Assembly: GCA_016196755.1 (NCBI GenBank)
Contig: JACPXC010000059.1
Span: 124,001-188,000, forward strand
Length of the DNA stretch: 64,000 bases
Direction: 5' to 3'
Source: Elusimicrobiota bacterium
GTDB lineage: Bacteria; Elusimicrobiota; Elusimicrobia; UBA1565
The notes beneath the pieces were generated by a model that ran no database searches, was not told the origin of the DNA, and worked only from the letters and a program-made list of their open reading frames with translations. The translations under genes were made by a program, and so were the position numbers. Shown one piece after another: positions 12,968 through 34,682 of this stretch. Within the stretch, counting starts at the first letter, position 1. The number at the start of each line of letters is the position of its first letter.

Positions 12968-13663
12968 ATGGCTCCCACGACGACGCTCTTGTTCGATTAC
13001 GGCGGCACGCTCGACGACGACGGCCGCCCCTGGCTCGACCGCTTCGAGCCGCTCTGGCGCGCGGCCGGCGCCGCCCAGCCGCATGAGACTTTGGTCAGGG
13101 CGTTCTATGACGCGGACGACAATCTTGCCAAACTGCACGATCTCTCCACGCTGGGCCTCGAGGAAACCGTGCGCCTGCAGTGCGCCGATGCCGGAAAGGT
13201 CCTCTTGCCGGGCAACGACCAGGCCGCCCGGCAGGTAGCCGACCGCTTCACCGCGGACTGCCGCGCCGCCCTGAAGAAGAACCGCCCCCTCCTGCAGCGG
13301 CTCGCCGCCCGCTACAAGCTGGGCATCGTGTCGAACTTCTATGGGAACCTCGAGGCCATCCTCCGGTCGGAAGGACTCCTCGAGCTCTTCGACGCCGTGG
13401 CCGACTCGGCCAAGGTGGGAAGGGAAAAGCCCGACCCCGCGATCTTCAACTGGGCCCTGGAGCGTCTGAAGGCCAAGCCCGAGGAAGCGCTGATGGTCGG
13501 CGACTCGCTTAAGCGCGACATGGCCGGCGCAGAGGCGGCGGGCATCCCCCACGCCTGGCTGGCCGGCGACAAGGCGGAAGCGCGGGCCTGCTGTCCCGGC
13601 ACCCCGGTCCTGCGCAGCTTCGCGGACCTCGAGCCCCTGCTCCTCGGGGTGCCTGCGCGATGA
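12968..13663 (+). CDS. HAD-superfamily hydrolase (phosphatase)
   Basis: 231 residues. Motif I is LLFDYGGTLDDD (nucleophile Asp, with Gly in place of the second Asp of DxD, as in a number of HAD enzymes). Motif II is IVSNF, motif III the Lys in GREKPDPAIF and motif IV VGDSLKRDMAGA, so the four catalytic elements are present except for the altered second Asp. A helical cap domain occupies about residues 15-105. It opens the run of seven coupled genes to 19511; its stop overlaps the next start (ATGA). A phosphatase fits the last step of a phosphodiester pathway (removing a terminal phosphate), but that is inference. TATAGT and TAGAAT hexamers (12939-12949) lie 18-23 nt before the start. Confidence 0.85.
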   Translation: MAPTTTLLFDYGGTLDDDGRPWLDRFEPLWRAAGAAQPHETLVRAFYDADDNLAKLHDLSTLGLEETVRLQCADAGKVLLPGNDQAARQVADRFTADCRAALKKNRPLLQRLAARYKLGIVSNFYGNLEAILRSEGLLELFDAVADSAKVGREKPDPAIFNWALERLKAKPEEALMVGDSLKRDMAGAEAAGIPHAWLAGDKAEARACCPGTPVLRSFADLEPLLLGVPAR

Positions 13664-14376
13664 AGGCCGCGGGCATCATAGCGGCGGGCCTGGGGGAACG
13701 GCTGGCCGGCCTGCATCCCGGCCTGCCCAAGCCCCTGGTCCCGGTGGGCGGCAAGCCGCTGGTCCACTGGGTCGTCTCGGGCCTGCTCGACGCCGGCATC
13801 GAGCGCCTCGTCATCCTATTCAACAGCAAGGGCGACGCGGCTCGGGACGCGCTCAAGAAAGACTTCCCCGACGCCCCCATCGAGTTCCTAAGGGCCGACA
13901 CCCCGACCAGCTTCGCCAGCTTCCGGCTGGTCGCGGCGACTTTGGCCCGGAAGCACGACGCCTTCCTCATGAGCACGGTGGACGCGCTCATCCCCCCCGC
14001 CGAGGTCCGACGCTTCGCCTACGAGGCCCTGGTCCCTTTCCCGGGGATGACCGAGCCGGCCGCCGCGGTGGCGCTGACCCACTTCGTCGAAGACGAGAAG
14101 CCGCTCTGGGCCGACACCGACGCCGACGGCCGGGTCACCGCATTCGGCGACGCGGCCATAAAGCAGGCTGCCGTGACCTGCGGCCTCTACGCGATGACAA
14201 AAGAGTCGGCCCGGCACCTCCGAGAGTCCCCCGAGGCCCCGCGTCTCAGGGACTGGTGGACCGGGCTCTCCAAGTCCCATCCCATCCGGGGCGTGACGCT
14301 CTCCGACACAGTCGACGTCGACCGCCCCGAGGACCTGCCGGCCGCCGAGAGGATCACCCGATGCTTCGCTGCCTAG
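13660..14376 (+). CDS. Sugar/polyol-phosphate nucleotidyltransferase
   Basis: 238 residues with a Rossmann-like NTP-transferase fold. The signature AAGLGERLAG with LPKPLVPVGGKPLVHWV a few residues later is the nucleotide-binding loop and Lys of LicC/RmlA/GlmU-type enzymes, and MSTVDALIP gives the metal-binding Asp region. These enzymes join an NTP and a phosphorylated small molecule to make an NDP-activated product. Because the sixth gene of the set needs a CDP-linked alcohol, CTP is the likeliest nucleotide; this is inferred. The 3' end overlaps the next gene by 16 nt, and the ATG overlaps the HAD stop. Confidence 0.85.
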   Translation: MKAAGIIAAGLGERLAGLHPGLPKPLVPVGGKPLVHWVVSGLLDAGIERLVILFNSKGDAARDALKKDFPDAPIEFLRADTPTSFASFRLVAATLARKHDAFLMSTVDALIPPAEVRRFAYEALVPFPGMTEPAAAVALTHFVEDEKPLWADTDADGRVTAFGDAAIKQAAVTCGLYAMTKESARHLRESPEAPRLRDWWTGLSKSHPIRGVTLSDTVDVDRPEDLPAAERITRCFAA

Positions 14377-15209
14377 GCGTGTTCCGCGAGCTCCAGAACT
14401 CTCCCGGCCGGGAGACCGACGACGCCCTCATCCTCAAGGCCGTCCTGGAACAGCTCGAGGTGCTGGGAGTCAAGACCACGGCCGTCACGCCGGAAGAACT
14501 CGATGAGCTGCCGAATTTCGACTACGACCTCATCATCCCGATGTGCGAGGCGCCGGAACGCATCGCGCGGCTCGACGGCGCCGAGAAGCGCTCGCCCGGA
14601 ACGCTTTGGGTGAACCGTCCATCCTCGGTCCTGGCCTGCTACCGCACGAGCATGGTGCCGGTCCTCCAGGCCGAGCCGGGCCTGCGGCTCCCGCCCTCCG
14701 AGCTGCGCTCGGTGACCGGCGGCCCAGGCGAGCCGCCCAAGTTCCCGGCGCCCGAGGGCTGGTGGGCCAAGCGCGGCGACGTCCACAACACCTGCGACCA
14801 CGACGTGGTGCGCATCGCGCGCTGGTCCGACGCCTCGGCGATCTTGGGCGACTTCGAGCGCCGCGAGATCGTCCGCTGGGTGGTGCAGGCGCACCAGCCC
14901 GGGGACCTCGTCAAGTTCTACGGCGTGGGGCCGGGGCATTGGTTCACGTGGTTCTATCACGATCCCGTGCGCGCCAAAAGGATCCAATTCGACCTCGATA
15001 CCCTCGCCGGCCAGGCCGCCGCGGGCGCGAAGGCGTTGGGCTTGGAAGTGTTCGGCGGCGACGCCATCATCTCCGAGAGCGGGCAGATTTCGATCATCGA
15101 CCTCAACTCCTGGCCGAGCTTCGCGTTGGTGAGACACGGAGCCGCCGTTCAGATTTCCTGGCATCTCCAGCGCCGCCTCAAGGCCGTCCTGACCGGAAGG
15201 AACAAATGA
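14361..15209 (+). CDS. ATP-grasp-like protein of unknown substrate
   Basis: 282 residues from the ATG at 14361. Upstream in-frame codons fall inside the previous gene and were left out. The N-terminal half looks like a pre-ATP-grasp domain (NFDYDLIIPMCEAPERI). The C-terminal half carries VKFYGVGPGHWFTWFY and then GLEVFGGDAIISESGQISIIDLNSWPSF, which resembles the metal-binding D...D/N-x-N-x-x-P end of ATP-grasp ligases and kinases (RimK, D-Ala ligase or inositol-phosphate kinase type). Members use ATP to make acyl-phosphates and ligate amines, or to phosphorylate alcohols. Amino-acylation or phosphorylation of the polyol made by its neighbours is possible. I do not recognise a characterised relative. 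Confidence 0.6.
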   Translation: MLRCLGVFRELQNSPGRETDDALILKAVLEQLEVLGVKTTAVTPEELDELPNFDYDLIIPMCEAPERIARLDGAEKRSPGTLWVNRPSSVLACYRTSMVPVLQAEPGLRLPPSELRSVTGGPGEPPKFPAPEGWWAKRGDVHNTCDHDVVRIARWSDASAILGDFERREIVRWVVQAHQPGDLVKFYGVGPGHWFTWFYHDPVRAKRIQFDLDTLAGQAAAGAKALGLEVFGGDAIISESGQISIIDLNSWPSFALVRHGAAVQISWHLQRRLKAVLTGRNK

Positions 15210-16540
15210 CCAAGGTCCAAGAAGCCCCTATCGCCGGCCCCAAGTCCGTGGCCCTGTTTGAAGAAGAGCAGGGCTACCTGACCCCCGGCCTCCAGCAGAT
15301 CGCCGTCTTCTCGAAGCTGGCGATGGCCAAGGGCAAGGGTGCCGTCCTCACCGACGAAGACGGCAAGGAGTACCTCGACCTGGTCGCCGGCGTCTGCGTG
15401 GCCTCGATCGGCCATGGCCATCCCGAGTACGCGAAGGCCCTGGCCGAGCAGGCCGCCAATATCACCGTGGGCAGCTTCACGACCAAGGCACGGGTCTCTT
15501 TCTGCCGAAGACTCATGCCCCTGCTCCCCAAAGGCCTCGACCGCGTCCAGCTCTACTCGAGCGGCGCCGAAGCCGTCGAGGCGGCGTTCAGACTGGCCAA
15601 GTCCCGCACCGGCCACTTCGAGTTTTTGGCCTTTTGGGGCGGCTTCCACGGGAAGACGGGCGGCGTGCTCCCTCTCTTGGGCGACACCTCCTTCAAGGCC
15701 GGCCTTGGACCGCTGATGCCGGGCACCTACTCGGCGCCTTATCCGAACCCCTACCGCTGTCCGTTCAAGAACGAGGCCCCGCACGACTGCGCGGCGCATT
15801 GTCTCGAGTTCGCGCGGGAGTACCTCAAGCGCTCGACGACGGGCTCGTTGGCCGCTGTCATCTGCGAGCCGATCCAGGGCACCGCCGGGAACGTCATCCC
15901 GCCCGCGGGCTGGCTCAAGGGCCTCAAGGAGATCGCCCACGAGTCCGGTGCTTTGCTCATCGCCGACGAGATGATCACCGGCTTCGGCAGGACCGGCAAA
16001 TGGTTCGGCGTCGACCACGACAACCTCTCCCCCGACGTGATGACGGTGGGCAAAGGCGTGGCCGGCGGCTTCCCGGTCAGCGGCGTCATCACATCGGCGG
16101 CGATAGCCGACTCCAAACCCTTCGCGAACCCCTCGGGCTCCTCGTCGAGCTACGGCGGCAATCCCCTGGCCGCCGCCGCCTGCGATGCCACTCTCAAGAT
16201 CCTCTCCGAAGAGGACCTCGTCGAGAACAGCCGGAAGGTGGGTGCCAAGATGCTCGAGCGCCTGCAGGGCATGAAGGACAAGTTCCCCTTCATCGGCGAT
16301 GTCAGAGGCCGGGGCCTCATGATCGGCGTGGAACTCGTCGCCGACAAGAAGACCAAGGAGCCGCTCTCCAAGGATAAGTGCCGCGCCCTCTTCGAGGAAG
16401 GCCTGCGCCGCGGCATCGTGACGATGGCCTACTCCCCGGTCATCCGCATCAACCCGCCGCTCAACATCACGGCTGCCCAGGCCGACGAGGCACTCGACCG
16501 CCTCGAGGCCTGCTTTGTCTGGCTGGCGGCGCGCGGGTGA
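15206..16540 (+). CDS. Class III PLP-dependent aminotransferase
   Basis: 444 residues, normal for the family. It shows the order expected for class III (GABA/ornithine/glutamate-semialdehyde type) enzymes: LVAGVCVASIGHGHPEY near the N-terminus, SSGAEAVEAA for PLP phosphate binding, FWGGFHGKTGG, ICEPIQGTAGN, LIADEMITGFGRTG containing the Asp that pairs with the pyridine nitrogen, and the Schiff-base Lys at about residue 283 in MTVGKGVAGG. It transfers an amino group to a carbonyl compound. The adjacent oxidoreductase could supply that carbonyl. Starts ATGA over the ATP-grasp stop and ends GTGA over the next start. Confidence 0.92.
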   Translation: MTKVQEAPIAGPKSVALFEEEQGYLTPGLQQIAVFSKLAMAKGKGAVLTDEDGKEYLDLVAGVCVASIGHGHPEYAKALAEQAANITVGSFTTKARVSFCRRLMPLLPKGLDRVQLYSSGAEAVEAAFRLAKSRTGHFEFLAFWGGFHGKTGGVLPLLGDTSFKAGLGPLMPGTYSAPYPNPYRCPFKNEAPHDCAAHCLEFAREYLKRSTTGSLAAVICEPIQGTAGNVIPPAGWLKGLKEIAHESGALLIADEMITGFGRTGKWFGVDHDNLSPDVMTVGKGVAGGFPVSGVITSAAIADSKPFANPSGSSSSYGGNPLAAAACDATLKILSEEDLVENSRKVGAKMLERLQGMKDKFPFIGDVRGRGLMIGVELVADKKTKEPLSKDKCRALFEEGLRRGIVTMAYSPVIRINPPLNITAAQADEALDRLEACFVWLAARG

Positions 16541-17511
16541 GCCTTAAGGGCGCCCTGGTGGGCTTCGGCAAGGTCGCCGAGGCCGCGCACCTGGGCCCCT
16601 TGCGAGCCGCGAAAGGCTTCTCTATCGCAGCCGTCGTCGAGGCGGATGCCGATAGACGCCACGCCGCCGCGAAAGCGCTTCCCGGCGCCAAACTCTACCC
16701 GTCCATCGAGGCCCTGCTCTCCAAAGAGAAAGGCCTCGACTTCGCCGACATAGCCACCCCGCCGTGGCTGCATGCGCCGTTGGCGAAGACTTGTCTCGAG
16801 GCGGGACTCAACGTCCTGTGCGAAAAGCCCCTGGCGATGACGGAAACGGAGTTGGATTCTTTAGCCCTTGCCGCCAAGACCTCGGGCAAGACGCTGTTCT
16901 GCGTCCACAACTGGAAGAAGGCCCCGCTCATCGCCAAGCTCAAGGAGCTCCTCGACGAGGGCGCCATCGGCGAGCCGCGCTTCGTGCAATGGGAAGTCCT
17001 GAGGACCAAGCCCGCCGCCGATGTGGGAGGCGGGTGGCGCAGCGACCCCGCTCGAGCCGGCGGCGGCATCGTGATGGACCACGGCTGGCATGCCTTCTAT
17101 CTCCTGCGTTGGCTGTTGGGCAAGAAGCCGACCAGCGCTTCGGCCAAGCTGATCCCAGCCGCTCCCAAAGAAGTCGAGGCTACCGTGCTGGCCGACTTCG
17201 GGGGCGTCCCCGCCGTCGTCCATCTGAGCTGGCGCGCTCCCGAACGCTCCCATGCCGGGGTCTTCAGAGGCTCGAAGGGCTCGATCGAGATAAGCGACGC
17301 GGCCCTGGTCCTCAAGACCCAGGACAAGATGGAGACGCGCTACGTCTTCGCGGAGCCGCTCTCGCACGGCTCGGCCCATCCCGATTGGTTCGCGCAGATC
17401 CTCCCCGACTTCGCCGCGGCGGTAGCCGACAAGTCCTTGGGCGCCGAAGCCTTGGAAGAGGCCCGAGACGCGATGAAGCTGGTGACGCTCTGCTACTCCA
17501 AGAAGAGATGA
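16537..17511 (+). CDS. Gfo/Idh/MocA-family NAD(P)-dependent oxidoreductase
   Basis: 324 residues from a GTG at 16537 that overlaps the aminotransferase stop. The Rossmann motif is ALVGFGKVAEAAHLGPL. NVLCEKPLAMTETELDSL is the EKP signature of the family and GGGIVMDHGWHAFYLL the C-terminal substrate-side motif. Family members oxidise a hydroxyl of a sugar or cyclitol (inositol dehydrogenase, glucose-fructose oxidoreductase). Coupled translation with an aminotransferase suggests oxidation of a polyol OH to a ketone followed by amination. Substrate not determinable here. Confidence 0.88.
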   Translation: MSLKGALVGFGKVAEAAHLGPLRAAKGFSIAAVVEADADRRHAAAKALPGAKLYPSIEALLSKEKGLDFADIATPPWLHAPLAKTCLEAGLNVLCEKPLAMTETELDSLALAAKTSGKTLFCVHNWKKAPLIAKLKELLDEGAIGEPRFVQWEVLRTKPAADVGGGWRSDPARAGGGIVMDHGWHAFYLLRWLLGKKPTSASAKLIPAAPKEVEATVLADFGGVPAVVHLSWRAPERSHAGVFRGSKGSIEISDAALVLKTQDKMETRYVFAEPLSHGSAHPDWFAQILPDFAAAVADKSLGAEALEEARDAMKLVTLCYSKKR

Positions 17512-18647
17512 GCATGACCCAGGCCGTGCTCTGGATGCCGCACTCCGCCCTCATGATGGCCAGGGTCGGCGGCCTCGCCGTCATCGAGCGCCAGTTCTTC
17601 CTCCTAAGGCGCGCCGGCATCACGAAGGTCTGGGTCGGCACCAATCCGCCGAACGCGACGCTAAGGATCCCGGAAGGCCTCGAGGTCCTCTGGGCCGGGA
17701 ACTCGCCTATCCGCCCGCCCTATTTGGCTTTCTCGGGCGACCATTTCGTCAGACTGCCGACGCTCAAGCGCGTCCTTGCCGAAGATTCCAACGTGCCGGT
17801 CTCCTGGCAGGACGACGCGGGCAAGGGCGTCCTCCAGCTCGTCCCCGTCGACGCGGGCGACCCGATCCATTTCGAGAAGAAGCGCCTCCCGGACGGCGAG
17901 TGGGTGATGCTGACGCATCCTCCTCTGCCGGCGCTGAGCTGGCTGACACACGAAGCGACCAAGAGCACCGACGGCTTCATGGCCAAGCACTTCGACCGGA
18001 AGATCTCCTTGGCGGTCACAAAGCGTCTGCTCGACACCTTCGTGACGCCGAACATGATGACGTTCATCAGCGTGGCCATCGGCCTGGCGGGGGCCGCTCT
18101 CTTAGCGTTCGGGCAGGAACTGCCTGGGGCGTTGCTGATCTGGCTGCACTCGACGTTGGACGGCTGCGACGGGGAATTAGCACGGCTCAAGTTCATGGAA
18201 AGCCCGCTCGGCGGGATCTTGGATTTTTGGGGCGACAACGTCGTCCATGCGGCGCTCTTCGTCGGCCTGGGGCTGGGGCTCTCGCGGGCGCAGGGCATGG
18301 CGCTTCCGCTGGTCCTCGGGGTGGTGGCGGCGCTCAGCGCCACGGCTTCGGCGGGTCTGGCGTTCGCGCATTCGCGACGCAAGGCCGCCGCGCGCGGCGG
18401 CGCGGGGCCGTTTTTCTCCGGCGTGGCGGACGTTTCGGGGGCGGCGACGGCGGAGAAGAGGTTGGCGGCGGTGGAGGACGCGCTGGCGCAGAGGGACTTC
18501 GTGTATCTGCTGGTGGCGCTGGCGGCGTTTGGGCGGCTGGAGTGGTTTTTGTGGGCGTCGGCGGTGGGTTCACCGCTCTTCCTCGTCGTGCTGTTGTGGC
18601 TGCAGCGGCCGCGGACAGCGACAGGGCAGGCGTCGCCGACCATCTGA
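17508..18647 (+). CDS. CDP-alcohol phosphotransferase with degenerate nucleotidyltransferase-like N-terminal domain (DIPP-synthase-like)
   Basis: 379 residues. Residues 1 to about 150 resemble a nucleotidyltransferase fold (GGLAVIERQFFLLRRAGI and SGDHFVRLPTLKRVL) but lack the G-x-G-x-R nucleotide loop. A linker with STDGFMAKHFDRKISLA follows, then six hydrophobic helices. The CDP-alcohol phosphotransferase motif is complete: D218, D221-G222, A225-R226, G235, D239 and D243 (D-x2-D-G-x2-A-R-x8-G-x3-D-x3-D). This architecture matches bifunctional inositol-phosphate cytidylyltransferase/di-myo-inositol-phosphate-phosphate synthases. The enzyme should join a CDP-activated alcohol to a second alcohol, in the membrane. 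The N-terminal activity appears lost and may be supplied by the gene at 13660. Start ATG 17508 overlaps the previous stop; MSMT leaves a second ATG at 17514. Confidence 0.82.
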   Translation: MSMTQAVLWMPHSALMMARVGGLAVIERQFFLLRRAGITKVWVGTNPPNATLRIPEGLEVLWAGNSPIRPPYLAFSGDHFVRLPTLKRVLAEDSNVPVSWQDDAGKGVLQLVPVDAGDPIHFEKKRLPDGEWVMLTHPPLPALSWLTHEATKSTDGFMAKHFDRKISLAVTKRLLDTFVTPNMMTFISVAIGLAGAALLAFGQELPGALLIWLHSTLDGCDGELARLKFMESPLGGILDFWGDNVVHAALFVGLGLGLSRAQGMALPLVLGVVAALSATASAGLAFAHSRRKAAARGGAGPFFSGVADVSGAATAEKRLAAVEDALAQRDFVYLLVALAAFGRLEWFLWASAVGSPLFLVVLLWLQRPRTATGQASPTI

Positions 18648-18656
18648 CGGAGCCGG

Positions 18657-19511
18657 ATGCCCGACTCAATCTTCGCCGACAAGGAGGTCCGCTTCTCCCG
18701 CGCCGACGGCCGGACCCTGACCCTGCCCTGGCCCGACCCCTTCTACCCCGACATCGCCGCCGTCCTCTCCAAGGTCAAGCCGCTGGCCTACACCTATCTC
18801 CCGCCGATGACCCCGCGCCCGTTCGCGGACCACGCCGACTTCTTCGGCCTCGAATGGGGGCTGGGCGGCGAGGACTGCCTCTTCTTCAGCCTCGACCGGA
18901 AGGTCCTCAAGCGGGCCCTGGCCCTCCATGACGACGCCTCCACCGACTCGGAAGCCGCCCTCCAGGCCCTCCTCGGCTACCCCGCGTGCTGCGTCGACTT
19001 CCACTCCCGGCACGCCGACCCCCTGGCCCGGCGCGACCTCATCGGGCGGATCTTCGAAGGGACCAAACCCAGCTTCTTGATGAACACCGTCCTGAACACC
19101 ACCGGCCGCTCCGAACGGCTCGAGGTCTTCCGGGGCAACATCAAGAAACTCCACGTCCTCCCCTGGCATCCCTGCTCCGCCGACTGCGGACCCAGCAAGA
19201 CCGCCGCCGCGCGGATCTGGCGCACCATGCGGACCCTCCACCCCGGCCTGGCCGCCCGCATGAAAGACGCGCTCGCGAAGCCCGTCCTCTACTACAACGA
19301 CCGCGAGTGCGCCTTTCTCGACGGGAACCCGTACTCCCGGATCCTCTACGACGACATGATACTGGAGGAGTCCGCCAAGCGGCTCCTAAGGGACGGCGAC
19401 GCCCTTGCCCTCGGGAAGGACGAGATCGTCGTCAGCGCCGGCGGACGCCGCCTTGGGACCATCGCCTGTCGAGATCCCCTGCTCATATACTTTCAGACCG
19501 CGGTCGACTAG
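18657..19511 (+). CDS. Unknown protein with conserved-looking Cys pairs (DUF483-like)
   Basis: 284 residues, soluble, no signal peptide. It begins 9 nt after the CDP-alcohol phosphotransferase stop, so it is probably the last gene of that unit. Notable motifs are LLGYPACCVDFHSRH (about residues 103-117), FLMNTVLNTTGRSERL and LHVLPWHPCSADCGPSK, four Cys in two clusters that could bind a metal or an Fe-S cluster. These remind me of the archaeal DUF483 group (GYP-x-CC motif), but I could not compare. The last 60 residues look like a small beta domain (KDEIVVSAGGRRLGTI). Function unknown; co-location suggests a step in the same pathway. Confidence 0.6.
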   Translation: MPDSIFADKEVRFSRADGRTLTLPWPDPFYPDIAAVLSKVKPLAYTYLPPMTPRPFADHADFFGLEWGLGGEDCLFFSLDRKVLKRALALHDDASTDSEAALQALLGYPACCVDFHSRHADPLARRDLIGRIFEGTKPSFLMNTVLNTTGRSERLEVFRGNIKKLHVLPWHPCSADCGPSKTAAARIWRTMRTLHPGLAARMKDALAKPVLYYNDRECAFLDGNPYSRILYDDMILEESAKRLLRDGDALALGKDEIVVSAGGRRLGTIACRDPLLIYFQTAVD

Positions 19512-24213: not shown

Positions 24214-24846
24214 ATGCTTACCTCCCTCCTAGACGACATCCTCGGCCCCAGCGCGAAGCTGTCCGTCCTGCGCATCTTGTTCAGACAAGACGACCTGACC
24301 GGCCGCGAGGTCGCGCGGCGCGCGGACCTCAGCCCGCGCGCCGCCTCCCAAGCCCTGACCCGCCTCGTCGAAGCCGGGGTCGTCCGCCGCAAGCCCGCCG
24401 GGCAGGCCCATCTGTTCTCGGTCAATCGCCGGCGCCGCGGCGCGTTCTCCGCCCTAGGGGAGCTTTTCGCGGCGGAACAGGGCCTCTCGGGCTCGATCGG
24501 CCGCTACGTCGCGAAGACCGCCGGCGGCTCCTGCGTCGCCGTCGCGGTCTTCGGGAGCTATGCCCGCGGGACGGCGGTTTCGCAGAGCGACCTCGACGTC
24601 ATGGTCCTGCTCGACGACGCCCGCGTCGCGCCGAAGGTCTCGGAGCTCTTCGCCGAGCGCGCCGGCGCCTTCCATGATGAGTTCGGCCTCCGCCTCTCTC
24701 CCTACGTCATAAGCACCGCCGAGTTCGCCGCCCGCTTCAAGCGCAACGACGCGCTGATAAAGGCGGTCGTGCGGGAAGGCCGCGTCGTCGCCGGCAAGCC
24801 GTTGGCCGAGGTATTGGCGGATGAGTCCCAAGAAAAGAGGCGTTAG
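24214..24846 (+). CDS. Winged-helix plus minimal nucleotidyltransferase (MNT) antitoxin-like protein
   Basis: 210 residues. Residues 1-75 are a winged helix-turn-helix (REVARRADLSPRAASQALTR then LVEAGVVRRKPAG). Residues about 105-190 are a minimal nucleotidyltransferase with GSYARGT (114-120) and SDLDVMV, giving the metal-binding pair D126/D128. In characterised MNT-HEPN (type VII) systems the MNT protein inactivates the HEPN toxin by adding AMP to it. The following HEPN gene overlaps by 26 nt, as in such modules. The built-in DNA-binding domain and the upstream GTATAC array suggest that it also represses its own promoter. Confidence 0.82.
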   Translation: MLTSLLDDILGPSAKLSVLRILFRQDDLTGREVARRADLSPRAASQALTRLVEAGVVRRKPAGQAHLFSVNRRRRGAFSALGELFAAEQGLSGSIGRYVAKTAGGSCVAVAVFGSYARGTAVSQSDLDVMVLLDDARVAPKVSELFAERAGAFHDEFGLRLSPYVISTAEFAARFKRNDALIKAVVREGRVVAGKPLAEVLADESQEKRR

Positions 24847-25231
24847 ACCCGTCGGCGAATCCGAGGCGCGCTCCTATCTCAAGAAAGCCGAAGATTTCTA
24901 CCTGACCATGACCGAGTCTTTCCAAAACGCGCGCTGGAACTCGGTCGGCTTGGCCGGCGTCCACTGCGCCATCTCGGCCACCGACGCCGTCTTGGGGCTG
25001 AAGGCCCGGCTCCGCTCGGCCGGCGAGAGCCACCATGAAGCGGTCGAGCTCCTCAGGCAGCACGTACAGGACTCGAATACCGCCGCCCAGGCCCAACGTC
25101 TTAGTAGGATTCTCGGGGCCAAGAACCGGGTCGAATACGACAGCCGGGACTTCCGTCGGGACGAGGCCGCCGACATGGTAAAGGACGTCGGCCGCTACCT
25201 CGAATGGGTGAAGAGCTTTTTCCCCCTTTAG
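24821..25231 (+). CDS. HEPN-domain protein (putative toxin of an MNT-HEPN module)
   Basis: 136 residues, all helical, normal HEPN length. It starts inside the MNT gene (26-nt overlap). Features are ARSYLKKAEDFYLTMTES, LAGVHCAISATDAVLG (a hydrophobic core helix) and ILGAKNRVEYDSRDFRRDEA, the K-N-R-V-E-Y form seen in one HEPN subgroup. The usual RNase motif R-x4-6-H near the end of the domain is absent. The only match is R65-x5-H71 (RSAGESH), whose position makes a catalytic role uncertain. It may be a catalytically weak HEPN, or the toxin may act without the canonical site. Confidence 0.72.
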   Translation: MSPKKRGVRPVGESEARSYLKKAEDFYLTMTESFQNARWNSVGLAGVHCAISATDAVLGLKARLRSAGESHHEAVELLRQHVQDSNTAAQAQRLSRILGAKNRVEYDSRDFRRDEAADMVKDVGRYLEWVKSFFPL

Positions 25232-25843: not shown

Positions 25844-28513
25844 GTGCGACCCGTCCTAAATCTATATTTTATGCTGATTTTATCAGCTCTTTGCTCGTCA
25901 GCCCGGGCCCAAGAGCCCCCTCCCGAGGCCTCACCCACTATTTCTTCCGAGACCGCGCCGTCTCCGACCCCTGTCGTCCCGGTCGTCGCCCAGATCCAAT
26001 TTTACGGCCTGAAGACCGTCTCCGAGGACCGCGCCAAAGCCCTCGTGGCGGTCCGCCTCTGGGAGCCCTACACCCCCGAGCTCCAGGCCCGCGACCTGGC
26101 CACCCTCCTGGGGTCGGGACTCTTCCTCGCCGTCACGATCAAGGAGGTCCCGCTCTCCGCGGGCGCCATCCGGGTCGACTACGACGTCAAGGAAGGGGTG
26201 CCCGAGACCCCCAAGCCCCTCTTGGCCCCCGACACCTCCTCGGCCCCCGCCCCCCCGTGGGTGCTGGGCGAGCTCGAGATCTCCGGCCAGAAGCACGTCA
26301 AGCGCGCCACCATCCGGACCCAGGTCAAGGGCCGCAAAGGGGACCTCTACGACCGGCCCGACCTCGACCGCGACATCCAGGCCGTCCTGGGGCTGGGGGG
26401 CTTCGAGCGCGTGGCGGCCGACGTCACCCCCCTGCCCGAGCGCCCCGTCCCGGCGCATTTTAGCGGCGCCTCCCCCTCGCCCTGGCAGGTCAAGCTCACT
26501 TTCCTGGTCGAGGAGAAGCCCCTGGTCCGCAAGATCGACTTCAACGGCCGGGTCAAGATGGGGAAGGGGACCCTGCTCGAGGCCATGTCGCTCAAGAAAG
26601 GCGACCCCTTCGACCGCGCCAAGCTCCGCGACGACGGCGAGAAACTGCTCGAGACCTACCGCAAGAAGGGCTATCTGCGCGCGTCGGTCGAGCCCTCCGT
26701 CGCCATCGACACGACCGCCCTGCAGGCCGACGTGGCCATGGCCATCACCGAGGGCCCGCGCTCCAAGCTCATGGCCGTGGTCTTCAAGGGCAATACCGCG
26801 CTCAAGCCCAAGAAGATCCTCAAGACCATGGTCAACAAGCCGGGCTGGCTCTTCGACAAGCCGCTCTCCGAGAAGGACCTCCCCGAGGACATGAAGAAGG
26901 TGGAGGCGGCCTTCAAGAACCAGGGCTACCTCGACTTCAAGATCAACGAGACCTCCGTCACCTTCAACGCCGAGGCCACCGAGGCCACGATCACCGTCGA
27001 CCTCGACCAGGGTCCCCAGTACCGCTACGGCGACACCACCTTCTCGGGCTATACGCTCTACGCCGCCACCGACCTGGCCAAGGCGCTCGACTACCGCAAG
27101 GGCAAGCTCTTCAGCCAGGAGCGCTTCGACGCCACCATCCGCTCGCTCCAGGAGCTCTTCGCCGAGAAGGGCCGCCTGCGCGCCCTCATCACGCCCGAGC
27201 GGAGCTTCAACGCCGTCACCGGCCTCATGGACGTCAAGTTCCTGGTCGAGGAAGGCCCGCCGGTCTACATCGACCACGTCGACGTCGAGGGCTACAAGAC
27301 CACCAAGCCCTGGGTGTTCAAGCGCGAGATCCTGCTCAAGCCCGGGAACCTGTTCCAGGTCTCCAAGCTCCGCAAGAGCCAGGAGAAGATCATGAACCTG
27401 GGCTTCATCGACGACGTCCAGCCCGACGTCCAGAGCCCCTACGACCCGGAGAAGGTCGACCTCTCCTTCGAGATCCTCGAAGGCAAGCCCGGCATGCTGA
27501 CCGCCGGGGCCGGCTTCTCCTCGCTCGACGGCCTGCTGGGCACCCTCTCGCTCCAGCACTTGAACCTCTTCGGGCGCGCCTGGCGCTCCTCGGTGCAGTG
27601 GTCCTTCGGCGCGCGCGTCAACGACTTCCAGGTCTCCTGGCTGACCCCCTGGGTCAAGGACAAGCCCATCAGCCTCGGCCTCGACGCCTACAACACCCGG
27701 CGCGTCTCGCCGTTCGCGGGCTCCTCCTCGGCCTACACCAACAAGCGCGTCGGCGGCGCCGTGCGCGTCGGCCCGCGATTTGCCGACGACATGTACCGGC
27801 TCGACACCTACTACTCCTTCACCCAGATCTCGCTGACCGGCATCGACACCCAGTTCCTCGGCCAGCTCTCCGAGGGCACCAGCGTCCAGTCGATGATCGG
27901 CGCCACCTTCGCGCGAGACACCCGCGACAACATCTGGGACCCCGCGCGCGGCGGGCGCCACGCGCTCAGCCTGGACCTGGCCGGCGGCCCGGTCTACGGC
28001 GACATCAACTTCCTGCGCCCGGCGCTGGCCAACGCCCAACACTTCACCCTGGCCCAGGTCAACGAGTATCCGCTGGTCCTGACCCTGTCGAACCGCCTCG
28101 GCTACGTCACCCAGTTCGGCAACACCCGCCAGGTCCCCGTCTTCGAGCGCTTCTTCATCGGCGGCCAGGACACCCTGCGCGGCTACTCGGCCGCCGGCGA
28201 GGCCGGCTACCGCGACGGCGGACGCATCCACGACGTCTTCAACATCGAGCTGGGCTTCCCGCTGGCCCGCGAGCGCCGCAAGACCATCGTCAAGTTCGTC
28301 ACCTTCTTCGACGCCGGGGCGAGCTGGGATTCCCCGCGCACCGTCCAGCTCAAGGTCGGCCAGGACCAGCAGCACATCAAGACCGACGTCGGCTTCGGCA
28401 TCCGCTTCGTGACGCCCGCGTTCCCGATCCGCCTCGACTGGGGTTACGGCTTCCAGCACCGCCCCGGCGAGGCGAAATACCAGATCAACTTCGGCATAGG
28501 AAACCTATTCTGA
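25844..28513 (+). CDS. bamA: Outer-membrane protein assembly factor BamA
   Basis: 889 residues, longer than E. coli BamA (about 810). The GTG at 25844 was chosen because it gives a full signal peptide ([20 protein letters not shown] then RAQ); the ATG at 25871 would leave only a 13-residue stub. POTRA domains cover about residues 45-470 (for example [20 protein letters not shown] and [20 protein letters not shown]). The C-terminal 16-stranded barrel runs from about 560, with the lid-lock motif region [15 protein letters not shown] (the RGY/F loop) and a terminal FGIGNLF strand. It folds barrel proteins into the outer membrane. Head of the envelope operon; its stop shares a base with the next start. 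Confidence 0.95.
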
Positions 28514-31999: not shown

Positions 32000-32806
32000 A
32001 TGCCCGACATCCACCCGACCGCCGTCATCGACCCGGGGGCTTCGCTTGCCGCCGGGGTCAAGGTCGGCCCCTACGCCGTCATCGGCGAAGACGTCGTCAT
32101 CGGCGAGGGCACGTCCATCGGCGCCCACGCCCACGTCGAGTTCACCCACATGGGCAAAGAGAACCGCCTCCTGCCCGGCTGCTTCGTGGGCGGGCCGCCT
32201 CAGGACTTGAAGTACGCCGGCGAGCGCACCCGGCTCGTCATGGGCGAGCGGAACACCGTGCGCGAGTGCGTGACGCTCAACCGCGGCACCAACGCCTCGG
32301 GCGAGACCCGCATAGGATCCAACTGCCTGTTCATGGCCTACTCCCACGTGGCCCACGACTGCCGCATCGGCGACGGCGTCATCGTCGTCAACTCGGTCGG
32401 CATCGCCGGCCACGTCGAGATCGGCGACTACACGGTCGTCGGCGGCATCGTCGGCGTCCACCAGTTCGTGCGCATCGGCAAGTACTGCATGGTGGGCGGC
32501 GGCTCGATGGTGGGCAAGGACCTGCCCTCGTTCTGCGTCTGCCAGGGCGACCGCGCCACCCTGCGCGGCCTCAACATGGTCGGCATGCGCCGCGCCGGGC
32601 TCTCGCGCGACGCCCAGACGGCGGTCAAGGCCGCCTACAAGGCCATCTTCCTCTCGGGCACGCCGCTCGAGGCCGCCCTGGCCGAGCTCAAGGCCGCCGG
32701 TCCCACGGCCGAGGTCTTCGAGATGATCGAGTTCATCGAGCGCTCCCAGCGCGGGACCTTGCGCCCCGCCACCGGCGCCCTGGCCGAGGAAGAGGTCACG
32801 CTCTGA
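32000..32806 (+). CDS. lpxA: UDP-N-acetylglucosamine O-acyltransferase LpxA
   Basis: 268 residues, normal. Hexapeptide beta helix (IHPTAVIDPGASLAAGVKVG) with the catalytic His in LFMAYSHVAHDCRIG and the conserved EIGDYTVVGGIVGVHQFVRI turn, then the helical C-terminal domain (MRRAGLSRDAQTAVKAAYKA). It adds the first hydroxyacyl chain to UDP-GlcNAc. ATG lies one base after the fabZ stop. The gene's last codons carry the AGAGG that appears to serve lpxI. Confidence 0.96.
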   Translation: MPDIHPTAVIDPGASLAAGVKVGPYAVIGEDVVIGEGTSIGAHAHVEFTHMGKENRLLPGCFVGGPPQDLKYAGERTRLVMGERNTVRECVTLNRGTNASGETRIGSNCLFMAYSHVAHDCRIGDGVIVVNSVGIAGHVEIGDYTVVGGIVGVHQFVRIGKYCMVGGGSMVGKDLPSFCVCQGDRATLRGLNMVGMRRAGLSRDAQTAVKAAYKAIFLSGTPLEAALAELKAAGPTAEVFEMIEFIERSQRGTLRPATGALAEEEVTL

Positions 32807-33642
32807 GCGCGGAGCCCATCGGCCTCATCGCCGGCTCCGGCCGGTTCCCCGTGCTGTTCGCCCAGGAGGCGCGCCGCCGGGGCAGCCGCGTGGTCGCCGT
32901 GGCGCTCAAAGGGGTCACCGACGTCCCCGCGCTCGAGGCCGCGGCCGATGAGGTGCGCGGCTTCGCCCTGGGCCAGGTCACCGGGCCCCTGGACTTCCTC
33001 AAGGGCGCCGGGGTCAAGCGCGTGGTCATGGCCGGCAAGGTCCAGCACGTCTCGCTCTTCGGCGGCGTCATCCCGGACTTCCGCGCGGTCAAGATCCTGG
33101 CCGGCCTCAAGGACCGGCGCACCGACACGATCCTCTCGGCCATCGCCGACGAGTTCAAGAAGGAGGGGCTCGAGGTCCTCTCCTCGGCCACCTACCTCTC
33201 CCACCTCATCGCCGCCGCGGGGCCGCTGAGCAAGCGCCGGCCCTCCGCCGCCGAGGAGGCCGACGCGGCGCTCGGCTGGAAGGCCGCCAAGGCCCTGGCC
33301 GGGCTGGACGTGGGCCAGAGCGTCGTCGTCCAGGGCAAGGCCGTCGTCGCCGTCGAGGCGATGGAGGGCACCGACGCCACCGTGCGCCGCGCCGCGGAGC
33401 TCGTGCGCTCCAACGGCGACGCGCCCAAGCTCGTCGTCGTCAAGGTCGCCAAGCCGCGCCAGGATTTCCGCTTCGACCTGCCGGTCGTGGGCCTCGAGAC
33501 CCTGGCCGTCCTCAAGGAGGCCGGCGCCACCGCCCTGGCCCTCGAGGCCGGCAAGACCTTGATATTCGACCGTGAAGCGTTCGCGCGCGGGGCCGACGCC
33601 CAGGACCTGGCGGTGTGGGCCATCTCCGGGGAGGACGTGTGA
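32803..33642 (+). CDS. lpxI: UDP-2,3-diacylglucosamine pyrophosphatase LpxI, probable CTG start
   Basis: 279 residues if initiated at the CTG at 32803, which overlaps the lpxA stop as CTGA and stands 7 nt after AGAGG. No ATG, GTG or TTG is available at the expected N-terminus: the conserved IGLIAGSGRFPVLFAQEA begins five codons after this CTG, and the next in-frame GTG would delete the GSGRFP motif. The C-terminal catalytic domain contains PRQDFRFDLPVVG with the Asp expected for LpxI. It cleaves UDP-2,3-diacylglucosamine to lipid X and UMP and replaces LpxH in this organism. Stop overlaps the next start (GTGA). Confidence 0.9.
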   Translation: MSAEPIGLIAGSGRFPVLFAQEARRRGSRVVAVALKGVTDVPALEAAADEVRGFALGQVTGPLDFLKGAGVKRVVMAGKVQHVSLFGGVIPDFRAVKILAGLKDRRTDTILSAIADEFKKEGLEVLSSATYLSHLIAAAGPLSKRRPSAAEEADAALGWKAAKALAGLDVGQSVVVQGKAVVAVEAMEGTDATVRRAAELVRSNGDAPKLVVVKVAKPRQDFRFDLPVVGLETLAVLKEAGATALALEAGKTLIFDREAFARGADAQDLAVWAISGEDV

Positions 33643-34682
33643 GCAAGCGCCTCAAGATCGGCGTCGTCGGCGGGGGGCGGATGGGCTCCCTGCACGCCCG
33701 CATCCTCGGCAAACACCCGGGCTTCGAGCTCGTCGGCGTGGCCGACACCGACCGCTGGCGCGCCCAGCTCGTGGCCTGGCGGGCCGGGACCTCGCCCTAC
33801 AAGGACTACGAGGACCTCATCGCCAAGGTCGACGCCGTCATCGTGGCCGTCCCCACCGAGTTCCACTTCAAGGTCGGCATGGCCGCGCTCGAGGCCGGCA
33901 AGCACGTCTTGATCGAGAAGCCCATCGCCGCCACCGTGGCCGAGGCCAAAGCCCTGCTCGACAAGGCCGCCGAGCGCAAGGTCCAGCTCCAGGTCGGCCA
34001 CATCGAGCGCTTCAATCCCGCGGTCCTGGCCGCCATCCCCCACATCCGCGAGCCGCGCTTCATCACCGTCGAGCGCCTCGGCCCCTACGACCCTCGGGTC
34101 TCGGGGATCGGGGTCGTGCTCGACCTCATGATCCACGACCTCGACATCCTCCTGACCCTGGTCGGCTCGGAGGTCGTCGACCTCGAGGCCCTGGGCGCGT
34201 CGCTGTTCGGCAAGCACGAGGACATCGCCAACGTCCGGGTGCGCTTCAAGAACGGCTGCGTGGCCGACCTCACGGCCAGCCGCATGTCGATCAAGCGTTG
34301 CCGCAAGATCCGCATCTTCCAGGCCTCGAGCTACATCTCGCTCGACTACCTCAACGCCGACCTGCGGGTCTACAAGCGCAAGAAACCCGAGATCGAGAGT
34401 TTAAAAGACGTCGAGATCCTCGCCCCGAAGCTGGGCAAGACCGAGCCCCTGCGCTCCGAGCTCGACCACTTCCTCGACTGCATCGTCCACGACCGTAAGC
34501 CCTGGACCTCGGGCGAGCACGGCCTGGAGGCCCTGGCCCTGGCCCTGCAGGTGATCGACGAGCTCGAGAAGTACGAGCTCTCGCACCACACGCGCTCCAC
34601 CGCCTTCCTGCCGCGCTGGGCCGGCGGCCTCAAGCGTCTGGCCGGCGCGGTCGGCCGCGCCGTGAGGAGCCCCGAGGAGTGA
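33639..34682 (+). CDS. Gfo/Idh/MocA-family oxidoreductase inside the lpx operon (GnnA-like)
   Basis: 347 residues from a GTG at 33639, with GGGGAGG 4 nt upstream. The Rossmann start is KIGVVGGGRMGSLHARILG. HVLIEKPIAATVAEAKALLD is the EKP motif and VGHIERFNPAVLAA follows, with the late HDLDILL motif. Its place between lpxI and lpxB resembles GnnA, which oxidises C3 of UDP-GlcNAc so that GnnB can aminate it to make amide-linked lipid A. No GnnB-type (DegT) aminotransferase is present in the window. A GnnA role is therefore only a guess; related oxidoreductases occur at this site in other bacteria without known function. Confidence 0.8.
   Translation: MSKRLKIGVVGGGRMGSLHARILGKHPGFELVGVADTDRWRAQLVAWRAGTSPYKDYEDLIAKVDAVIVAVPTEFHFKVGMAALEAGKHVLIEKPIAATVAEAKALLDKAAERKVQLQVGHIERFNPAVLAAIPHIREPRFITVERLGPYDPRVSGIGVVLDLMIHDLDILLTLVGSEVVDLEALGASLFGKHEDIANVRVRFKNGCVADLTASRMSIKRCRKIRIFQASSYISLDYLNADLRVYKRKKPEIESLKDVEILAPKLGKTEPLRSELDHFLDCIVHDRKPWTSGEHGLEALALALQVIDELEKYELSHHTRSTAFLPRWAGGLKRLAGAVGRAVRSPEE

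Follow-up and report, generated by a model that had tools for sequence, protein, structure and literature searches.

Six plus-strand genes lie head to tail in a 64,000-nucleotide stretch of an Elusimicrobiota metagenome-assembled genome (MAG), bases 124001–188000 of contig C28, which we call the window. They encode a HAD hydrolase (g1, 12968–13663; PF00702, E = 1.9e-20), a MobA-like nucleotidyltransferase of the NTP_transf_3 type (g2, 13660–14376; PF12804, E = 4.4e-11), an ATP-grasp enzyme recognized from its predicted structure (g3, 14361–15209), a class III aminotransferase dependent on pyridoxal phosphate (PLP) (g4, 15206–16540; PF00202, E = 7.7e-103), a Gfo/Idh/MocA dehydrogenase with a GTG start (g5, 16537–17511; PF01408/PF22725), and a CDP-alcohol phosphotransferase (CDP-AP) (g6, 17508–18647; PF01066, E = 4.7e-10, above the cut-off). 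From g1/g2 to g5/g6, the overlaps are 4, 16, 4, 4, and 4 nt. Pfam searches with the window proteins recovered the HAD, NTP_transf_3, Aminotran_3, GFO_IDH_MocA, and CDP-OH_P_transf families. Together with a myo-inositol-1-phosphate synthase (MIPS), these genes may build an aminated inositol headgroup, and it is this possibility that we develop here.

The arrangement is widely conserved. A g6 gene is present in 33 of 38 relatives, and the loci fetched from them contain the identical six genes in the identical order. Across the phylum, g3 occurs in 52 of 295 genomes, most of these loci having g1–g5 in order. When only loci with enough flanking sequence are counted, the g1–g5 order is kept in 47 of 52 and the g1–g6 order in 40 of 47, so a chance arrangement is excluded. 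Scanning GTDB genomes with a g3 alignment uncovered carriers beyond the phylum in Candidatus Methylomirabilis, other Methylomirabilota, and Rokubacteria, as well as in one MAG each of Nitrospirae, alphaproteobacterial, deltaproteobacterial, Desulfobacterales, and acidobacterial affiliation, nearly all with the same order. The genomes sampled are mostly MAGs, and gene calls in relatives are based on homology or codon usage. The cluster order is common to at least six phyla. A preliminary description of this DNA had named conserved gene order in relatives as a check on its proposal, and for six genes that order holds across phyla.

That description had counted a seventh gene. Its six overlapping genes stand where it placed them, but gene 7 (18657–19511, plus strand), an open reading frame (ORF) of 284 amino acids starting 10 nt past g6, is not conserved: it has no homologue in any Elusimicrobiota locus examined, and a single weak, partial match was seen elsewhere (L149 9694–9963, E = 3e-4). 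Gene 7 carries CC and C-x3-C cysteines and resembles DUF483 below threshold (E = 0.24). Its non-conservation rules it out as a member of the pathway.

The cluster also comes apart in places. Seven Elusimicrobiota carrier genomes (families f4 and f5) keep g1–g5 and have no g6 orthologue. In L055, g3, g4, and g5 are contiguous although g1 and g2 are not alongside, and in a deltaproteobacterial MAG (L129 8881–12060) g3, MIPS, and g5 are adjacent, with g2 and g4 homologues on another contig (G301:C127). In the g4 tree, sequences of the Elusimicrobiota family f7 (L061–L064, L125, and L137) group with those of Methylomirabilota, Rokubacteria, and others, nesting with starred support within the clade of the other phyla. 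This nesting indicates that the cluster or parts of it moved between phyla; g4 was transferred, probably along with its cluster.

MIPS regularly accompanies the cluster, and in most relatives, as in many loci of other phyla, its gene is the next one after g6. In the phylum sample, it was found in 51 of 52 g3-positive genomes and in 9 of 243 g3-negative ones (Fisher p = 1e-46, ignoring shared descent), and the sole g3-positive genome without it is a MAG in 490 contigs. Outside the taxonomic order to which the window belongs, all 16 g3-positive genomes have it. The window genome encodes one MIPS, of 475 amino acids, on another contig (G000:C23); the position next to g6 is taken by gene 7 and unrelated genes, up to bamA at 25844. 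We take MIPS to be the missing first enzyme of the pathway and, because it accompanies the cluster, the polyol is probably inositol.

Two of the six enzymes resemble those that activate and transfer inositol phosphate through CDP. Almost the whole of the g2 profile aligns with the inositol-1-phosphate cytidylyltransferase IPCT of T. maritima (4jd0, 7e-12), as well as with the A. fulgidus IPCT (2xme) and IPCT-DIPPS (4mnd); MurU outscores the IPCTs slightly, over a shorter stretch. Its signature G10-x-G12-x-R14 ... K24-P25 (13687–13734; this and the motifs below are on the plus strand) has G10, G12, R14, and K24 conserved at 97% or more in 71 sequences, and D108 is conserved as well. Thus, g2 is probably a CTP:(amino)inositol-phosphate cytidylyltransferase, and this IPCT-like match favors the earlier suggestion that the NTP-transferase activates a polyol with CTP.

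The complete CDP-AP motif that had been reported in g6 is indeed there, with every position present in residues 218–243. This signature, D218-x2-D221-G-x2-A-R226-x8-G235-x3-D239-x3-D243 (18159–18236), is conserved at 97% or more in 67 sequences and is invariant in all 17 sequences of alignment A2. The g6 profile finds AF2299 (E = 2e-37), IPCT-DIPPS (5e-23), and PIPS (4e-17), and g6 has the motif DGCDGE-x-AR in common with AF2299 and IPCT-DIPPS. The AlphaFold model of g6 has the CDP-AP membrane fold, and Foldseek places it closest to AF2299, with PIPS and IPCT-DIPPS also matched. By profile and by fold, g6 is of the DIPP-synthase/AF2299 type, much as the preliminary description had it. Against curated NCBIfam models, g6 scores 78 bits and g2 27 bits for IPCT-DIPPS (NF041135, cut-off 580 bits), and g6 scores 47 bits for PIPSynth (cut-off 170 bits), all below the cut-offs. 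Residues ∼1–150 of g6 form a degenerate cytidylyltransferase-like domain resembling that of AF2299. In the alignments, this domain has neither a GxGxR nor a KP motif. Because it lacks the nucleotide-binding signature, CDP activation must come from g2. Separately, ORFs of ∼186 amino acids that match only this degenerate domain occur in two relatives that make hopanoids and in which no g3 turned up (G012:C5:76369–76878 and G033:C11:85599–86069).

The next two enzymes belong, with g3, to what appears to be a three-gene amination module. In g5, the catalytic set K96 (in CEKPL), D180, and H184 (in DHGWH), numbered from the Ser at 16540 and spanning 16825–17091, is conserved at 97% or more in 69 sequences. 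Of the curated models, those for inositol 2-dehydrogenase and levoglucosan dehydrogenase come nearest, with scores that fall far short of the cut-offs; TIGR04380 (IolG; cut-off 355 bits) is tied best at 65.9 bits. It is probably an inositol-type dehydrogenase. In g4, the PLP lysine K283 (in T-x-GKG; 16052–16054) is conserved at 97% or more in 77 sequences, and a conserved R414 near the C terminus may, by analogy, bind the amino donor. We consider g4 a probable keto-inositol aminotransferase, its substrate not being readable from sequence.

The ATP-grasp enzyme g3 comes from a family that neither Pfam nor NCBIfam models. The window protein alone has no Pfam or NCBIfam match, and none to PF05770 at E ≤1, but its AlphaFold model (pLDDT 94.8) has the ATP-grasp fold. 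Foldseek ranks ZmITPK1 first (E = 2e-13); D-Ala ligase and LysX score nearly as well, and PPIP5K2 is among the kinases matched. In profile searches of the PDB, ITPK4 (E = 3e-4) and ITPK1 (2e-3) rank first; the similarity is weak, the E = 3e-4 match covering the C-terminal 67 residues. The metal motif D247-x-N249 (15099–15107), conserved at 97% or more in 82 sequences, aligns with the DxN of 7pup/2q7d, and D234 is conserved to the same degree. The enzyme thus shares its fold and metal motif with the inositol tris/tetrakisphosphate kinases (ITPK), and differs from them in the weakness of the similarity and in conserved motifs of its own (RExxxSPxRExDD, KRxDVHnT, and WPSFA). If g3 were instead an amide ligase, it would use an amino acid to acylate the amine that g4 produces, and MIPS itself would supply the cyclitol phosphate, without dephosphorylation; several end products would be compatible with such a step. 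The strength of the LysX and D-Ala ligase matches, equal to that of ITPK, speaks for such a ligase, as does the near parity of RimK (18 of 56 family members) and Ins134_P3_kin (22 of 56) in Pfam scans, all of these weak. The best PDB profile matches with their aligned DxN motif, and the cluster's link to inositol, argue against it, and we regard the ligase as unlikely, if well worth keeping in view. A cyclitol (inosamine or inositol) kinase is the probable identity of g3, favored about two to one. Of the two groups that had been proposed for it to add, phosphate therefore fits the ITPK matches, and an amino acid is less likely.

Finally, g1 carries the motif I DxGGT (D10-x-G12-G-T14; 12995–13009), conserved at 97% or more in 62 sequences. 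The nucleophile D10, K154, and the motif IV residue D179 are conserved, and the closest solved relative is 3qnm. It is probably a HAD subfamily I phosphatase acting on (aminated) inositol phosphate.

What can be read directly is which genes are present, how they are ordered, what they occur with, and which folds and active-site residues their products have; from these we infer every substrate, the sequence of reactions, and the final molecule. With a probability of roughly 0.55, the six genes and MIPS produce an aminoinositol that is activated with CTP and then linked through a phosphodiester to an acceptor whose likeliest identity is a membrane lipid. MIPS would provide inositol-1-phosphate, from which g1 would remove the phosphate. 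One ring hydroxyl of the inositol would be oxidized by g5 and the resulting ketone exchanged for an amine by g4. The aminoinositol would be phosphorylated by g3 and converted by g2 to CDP-aminoinositol, from which g6 would hand phospho-aminoinositol to the acceptor.

The setting of the cluster favors a membrane or envelope product. In the window's taxonomic order, the genes run pilQ-P-O-N-M (leftward), g1–g6–MIPS, and then bamA-skp-lpxD-lpxC-fabZ-lpxA; we named the pil, bam, skp, and lpx genes from the window ORFs and homologue order, LpxI being confirmed by Pfam. Outside the Elusimicrobiota, the neighbors are genes for hopanoids, the sterol-like lipids of bacteria. A Methylomirabilis MAG (L124) has HpnN-like, HpnM-like, squalene-hopene cyclase (SHC), and HpnL-like genes followed by g1–g6 and MIPS. 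A Nitrospirae MAG (L126) has an HpnM-like gene upstream of g1–g6, with MIPS, IspG, and HpnH downstream, and a Rokubacteria MAG (L140) holds HpnJ and HpnI within the cluster's 18.8-kb locus. HpnL-, HpnM-, or HpnN-like genes lie near many other loci from outside the phylum. The L124 SHC scores above its cut-off, as do the Elusimicrobiota HpnI, HpnJ, and HpnH queries.

Genome-wide counts point the same way. SHC and HpnH are above cut-off in 17 of 17 tested carriers outside the Elusimicrobiota, and the window genome encodes SHC, HpnH, HpnA, and an HpnG-like protein. Within the phylum sample but outside the window's order, SHC is found in seven of nine g6-bearing genomes, both exceptions being incomplete MAGs (80–82%), and in none of the seven genomes (f4/f5) that are positive for g3 and negative for g6. 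That g6 goes with SHC and HpnH in this way suggests that its acceptor is a hopanoid. Given an aminoinositol lipid, an extended hopanoid such as bacteriohopanetetrol is a serious candidate for the acceptor in hopanoid-making bacteria, at somewhat less than even odds. The cluster as such is not restricted to hopanoid makers, since the f4/f5 genomes carry g3 with neither SHC nor g6.

These same genomes bear on two other readings. In one, a version of the same scheme with another acceptor, g6 would use CDP-(amino)inositol to put a headgroup on diacylglycerol or some comparable lipid, as has been proposed for the B. vulgatus cluster, and the hopanoid genes would be mere membrane-lipid neighbors. 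The f4/f5 genomes keep g1–g5 without hopanoids, as such a glycerolipid headgroup would allow, and in Bacteroidetes, clusters of MIPS, an NTP transferase, a CDP-AP, and a HAD protein are described as making inositol lipids (PMC9246714); the same components all stand together in the loci of the relatives. Yet the f4/f5 genomes have no g6, and g6 tracks SHC among carriers outside the window's order. We consider a glycerolipid acceptor a reasonable but unlikely choice. In the other, g4 would aminate the hopanoid side chain and the inositol enzymes would work toward a product of their own, so that the operon only groups two lipid pathways. It draws on the co-occurrence of the cluster with hopanoids and on HpnO, the aminotransferase that makes aminobacteriohopanetriol (PMC12583986). 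However, g3 and MIPS, with g4 beside g3, are found in the seven SHC-free Elusimicrobiota genomes, and g3–g4–g5 are contiguous in L055 without g1 and g2 adjacent. Since the core occurs without SHC, an HpnO-like role for g4 is disfavored, and we hold it to be very improbable.

A third possibility is a soluble, aminated osmolyte resembling di-inositol phosphate, in which g2 would be the IPCT, g6 the DIPP synthase, and g1 the DIPP phosphatase, g3–g5 would alter the ring, and the tie to hopanoid or envelope genes would be indirect. It draws on the nearest relatives of g6: AF2299 and DIPP synthase use small hydrophilic CDP-donors, process no lipids, and have six helices with soluble acceptors (PMC4634129), and g1, g2, g6, and MIPS match the di-myo-inositol-phosphate pathway step by step. 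The envelope and hopanoid gene setting, the SHC and HpnH of all 17 carriers tested outside the phylum, and the seven carrier genomes with no g6 orthologue weigh against it, and nothing tying the cluster to heat or salt adaptation came to light, no test having been aimed at such a tie. A soluble product therefore seems improbable. The preliminary description had allowed for an osmolyte, but the cluster adjoins envelope or hopanoid lipid genes instead; its six-gene order, IPCT-like g2, and DIPPS-type g6 stand. Neither the cluster nor its conserved neighbors showed a phosphonate gene of the kind that a PntC-like headgroup would call for.

Several observations weigh against an aminoinositol lipid, and against a hopanoid one in particular. 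As far as we can read it, the g6 model has six transmembrane helices, the usual number, and characterized six-helix CDP-APs take soluble acceptors, those with lipid acceptors usually having extra helices (PMC4634129). In the window's order, the cluster sits beside bam/lpx and away from hopanoid genes; the neighboring HpnL, HpnM, and HpnN matches elsewhere fall below curated cut-offs; and some hopanoid-making relatives lack the cluster. For g3, the ATP-grasp ligases RimK, LysX, and Ddl are nearly as good a fit as kinases. Among the 69 NCBIfam families matched by g4, none of the 25 listed reaches its cut-off. In at least 97% of the 62 g1 sequences, Gly stands in place of the usual general-acid Asp (D+2 of DxDxT), and the phosphatase role of g1 is uncertain because this replacement runs throughout the family. 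Lastly, the co-occurrence counts stand uncorrected for shared descent.

An aminoinositol phospholipid or phosphohopanoid would be a new kind of membrane headgroup and would provide a function for the ATP-grasp family and for phosphotransferases of the AF2299 type. More boldly, g6 could place phospho-aminoinositol on bacteriohopanetetrol to give a zwitterionic, phosphate-linked class of hopanoid, exported by HpnL-, HpnM-, and HpnN-like proteins, with a g6 paralogue making a second such lipid; we rate this entire scheme as rather unlikely. We know of no phosphate-linked hopanoid headgroup. An aminoinositol phospholipid or phosphohopanoid would also suggest a role for the unassigned hpnL and offer a possible lipid biomarker of the carriers. 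In a survey of hopanoid genes, hpnA, hpnB, and hpnL remain unassigned, and the surroundings of the alphaproteobacterial clusters offer no obvious further candidates (PMC12583986).

The paralogue in question belongs to a related Elusimicrobiota MAG (L180 5612–10428), in which HpnJ, HpnI, an AF2299/DIPPS-type CDP-AP, and HpnL form an operon; another Elusimicrobiota MAG (L181 798–4075) has HpnI–CDP-AP–HpnL. These operons suggest another phosphate-linked modification of hopanoids. In Rokubacteria (L132 1300–4460, L146, and L152), genes for a LicC-like cytidylyltransferase, a second CDP-AP, an HpnL-like protein, and MIPS adjoin the six-gene cluster and may constitute a parallel CDP-polyol system. 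Elsewhere in the window, LpxI and a second Gfo/Idh oxidoreductase lie between lpxA and lpxB (32770–34682); the latter, we presume, could be GnnA-like and serve a diamino-sugar lipid A. Between gene 7 and bamA (24214–25231), an overlapping pair encoding a winged-helix plus NTP_transf_2 (MNT-like) protein and a HEPN protein is probably an inserted toxin–antitoxin system.

The cluster can be set beside several known systems. Outside the Elusimicrobiota, it adjoins genes of the hpn hopanoid clusters, namely SHC, HpnH, HpnI, HpnJ, and HpnL-, HpnM-, and HpnN-like genes, and to our knowledge none of g1–g6 is a known hpn gene. In the scyllo-inosamine-phosphate branch of streptomycin synthesis, a phosphatase, a Gfo/Idh-type dehydrogenase, an aminotransferase, and a kinase act in series, which parallels MIPS, g1, g5, g4, and g3 in logic. 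There, however, the aminotransferase is of the DegT type, the kinase is unrelated to g3, and the product enters an aminoglycoside rather than a CDP-linked phosphodiester. The di-myo-inositol-phosphate pathway of hyperthermophiles shares MIPS, an IPCT-like g2, and a DIPPS-like g6 with DGCDGE, and its end phosphate could be cut by a HAD protein. By contrast, g2 and g6 are here separate, the cytidylyltransferase domain of g6 is degenerate, and three extra enzymes would oxidize, aminate, and consume ATP. The carriers, moreover, include many groundwater and soil MAGs, and outside the Elusimicrobiota the genes sit in hopanoid loci. The best profile and fold match of g6 is AF2299 (PDB 4o6m/4o6n); both proteins join a degenerate N-terminal domain to a CDP-AP domain, and AF2299 itself binds CDP-glycerol.

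As the preliminary description had surmised, no account of a pathway with the present gene set was found in the open-access literature. The ordered pathway, undescribed as far as we found, spans at least six phyla, including many uncultured groundwater and soil bacteria and the NC10 methane oxidizers. Among published systems, the closest is an alternative cluster for inositol lipids known from B. vulgatus and Prevotella (Heaver et al. 2022, PMC9246714), the function of whose enzymes is itself still proposed. As described, and it is by description that we compare it, that cluster has no aminotransferase, Gfo/Idh protein, or ATP-grasp enzyme and no hopanoid setting; the window itself differs further in having MIPS on a separate contig. 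In the loci of the relatives, the likeness extends to MIPS, an NTP-transferase proposed to synthesize CDP-inositol, a CDP-AP, a HAD protein, and a neighbor resembling LPG synthase, each of which the two systems have in common.

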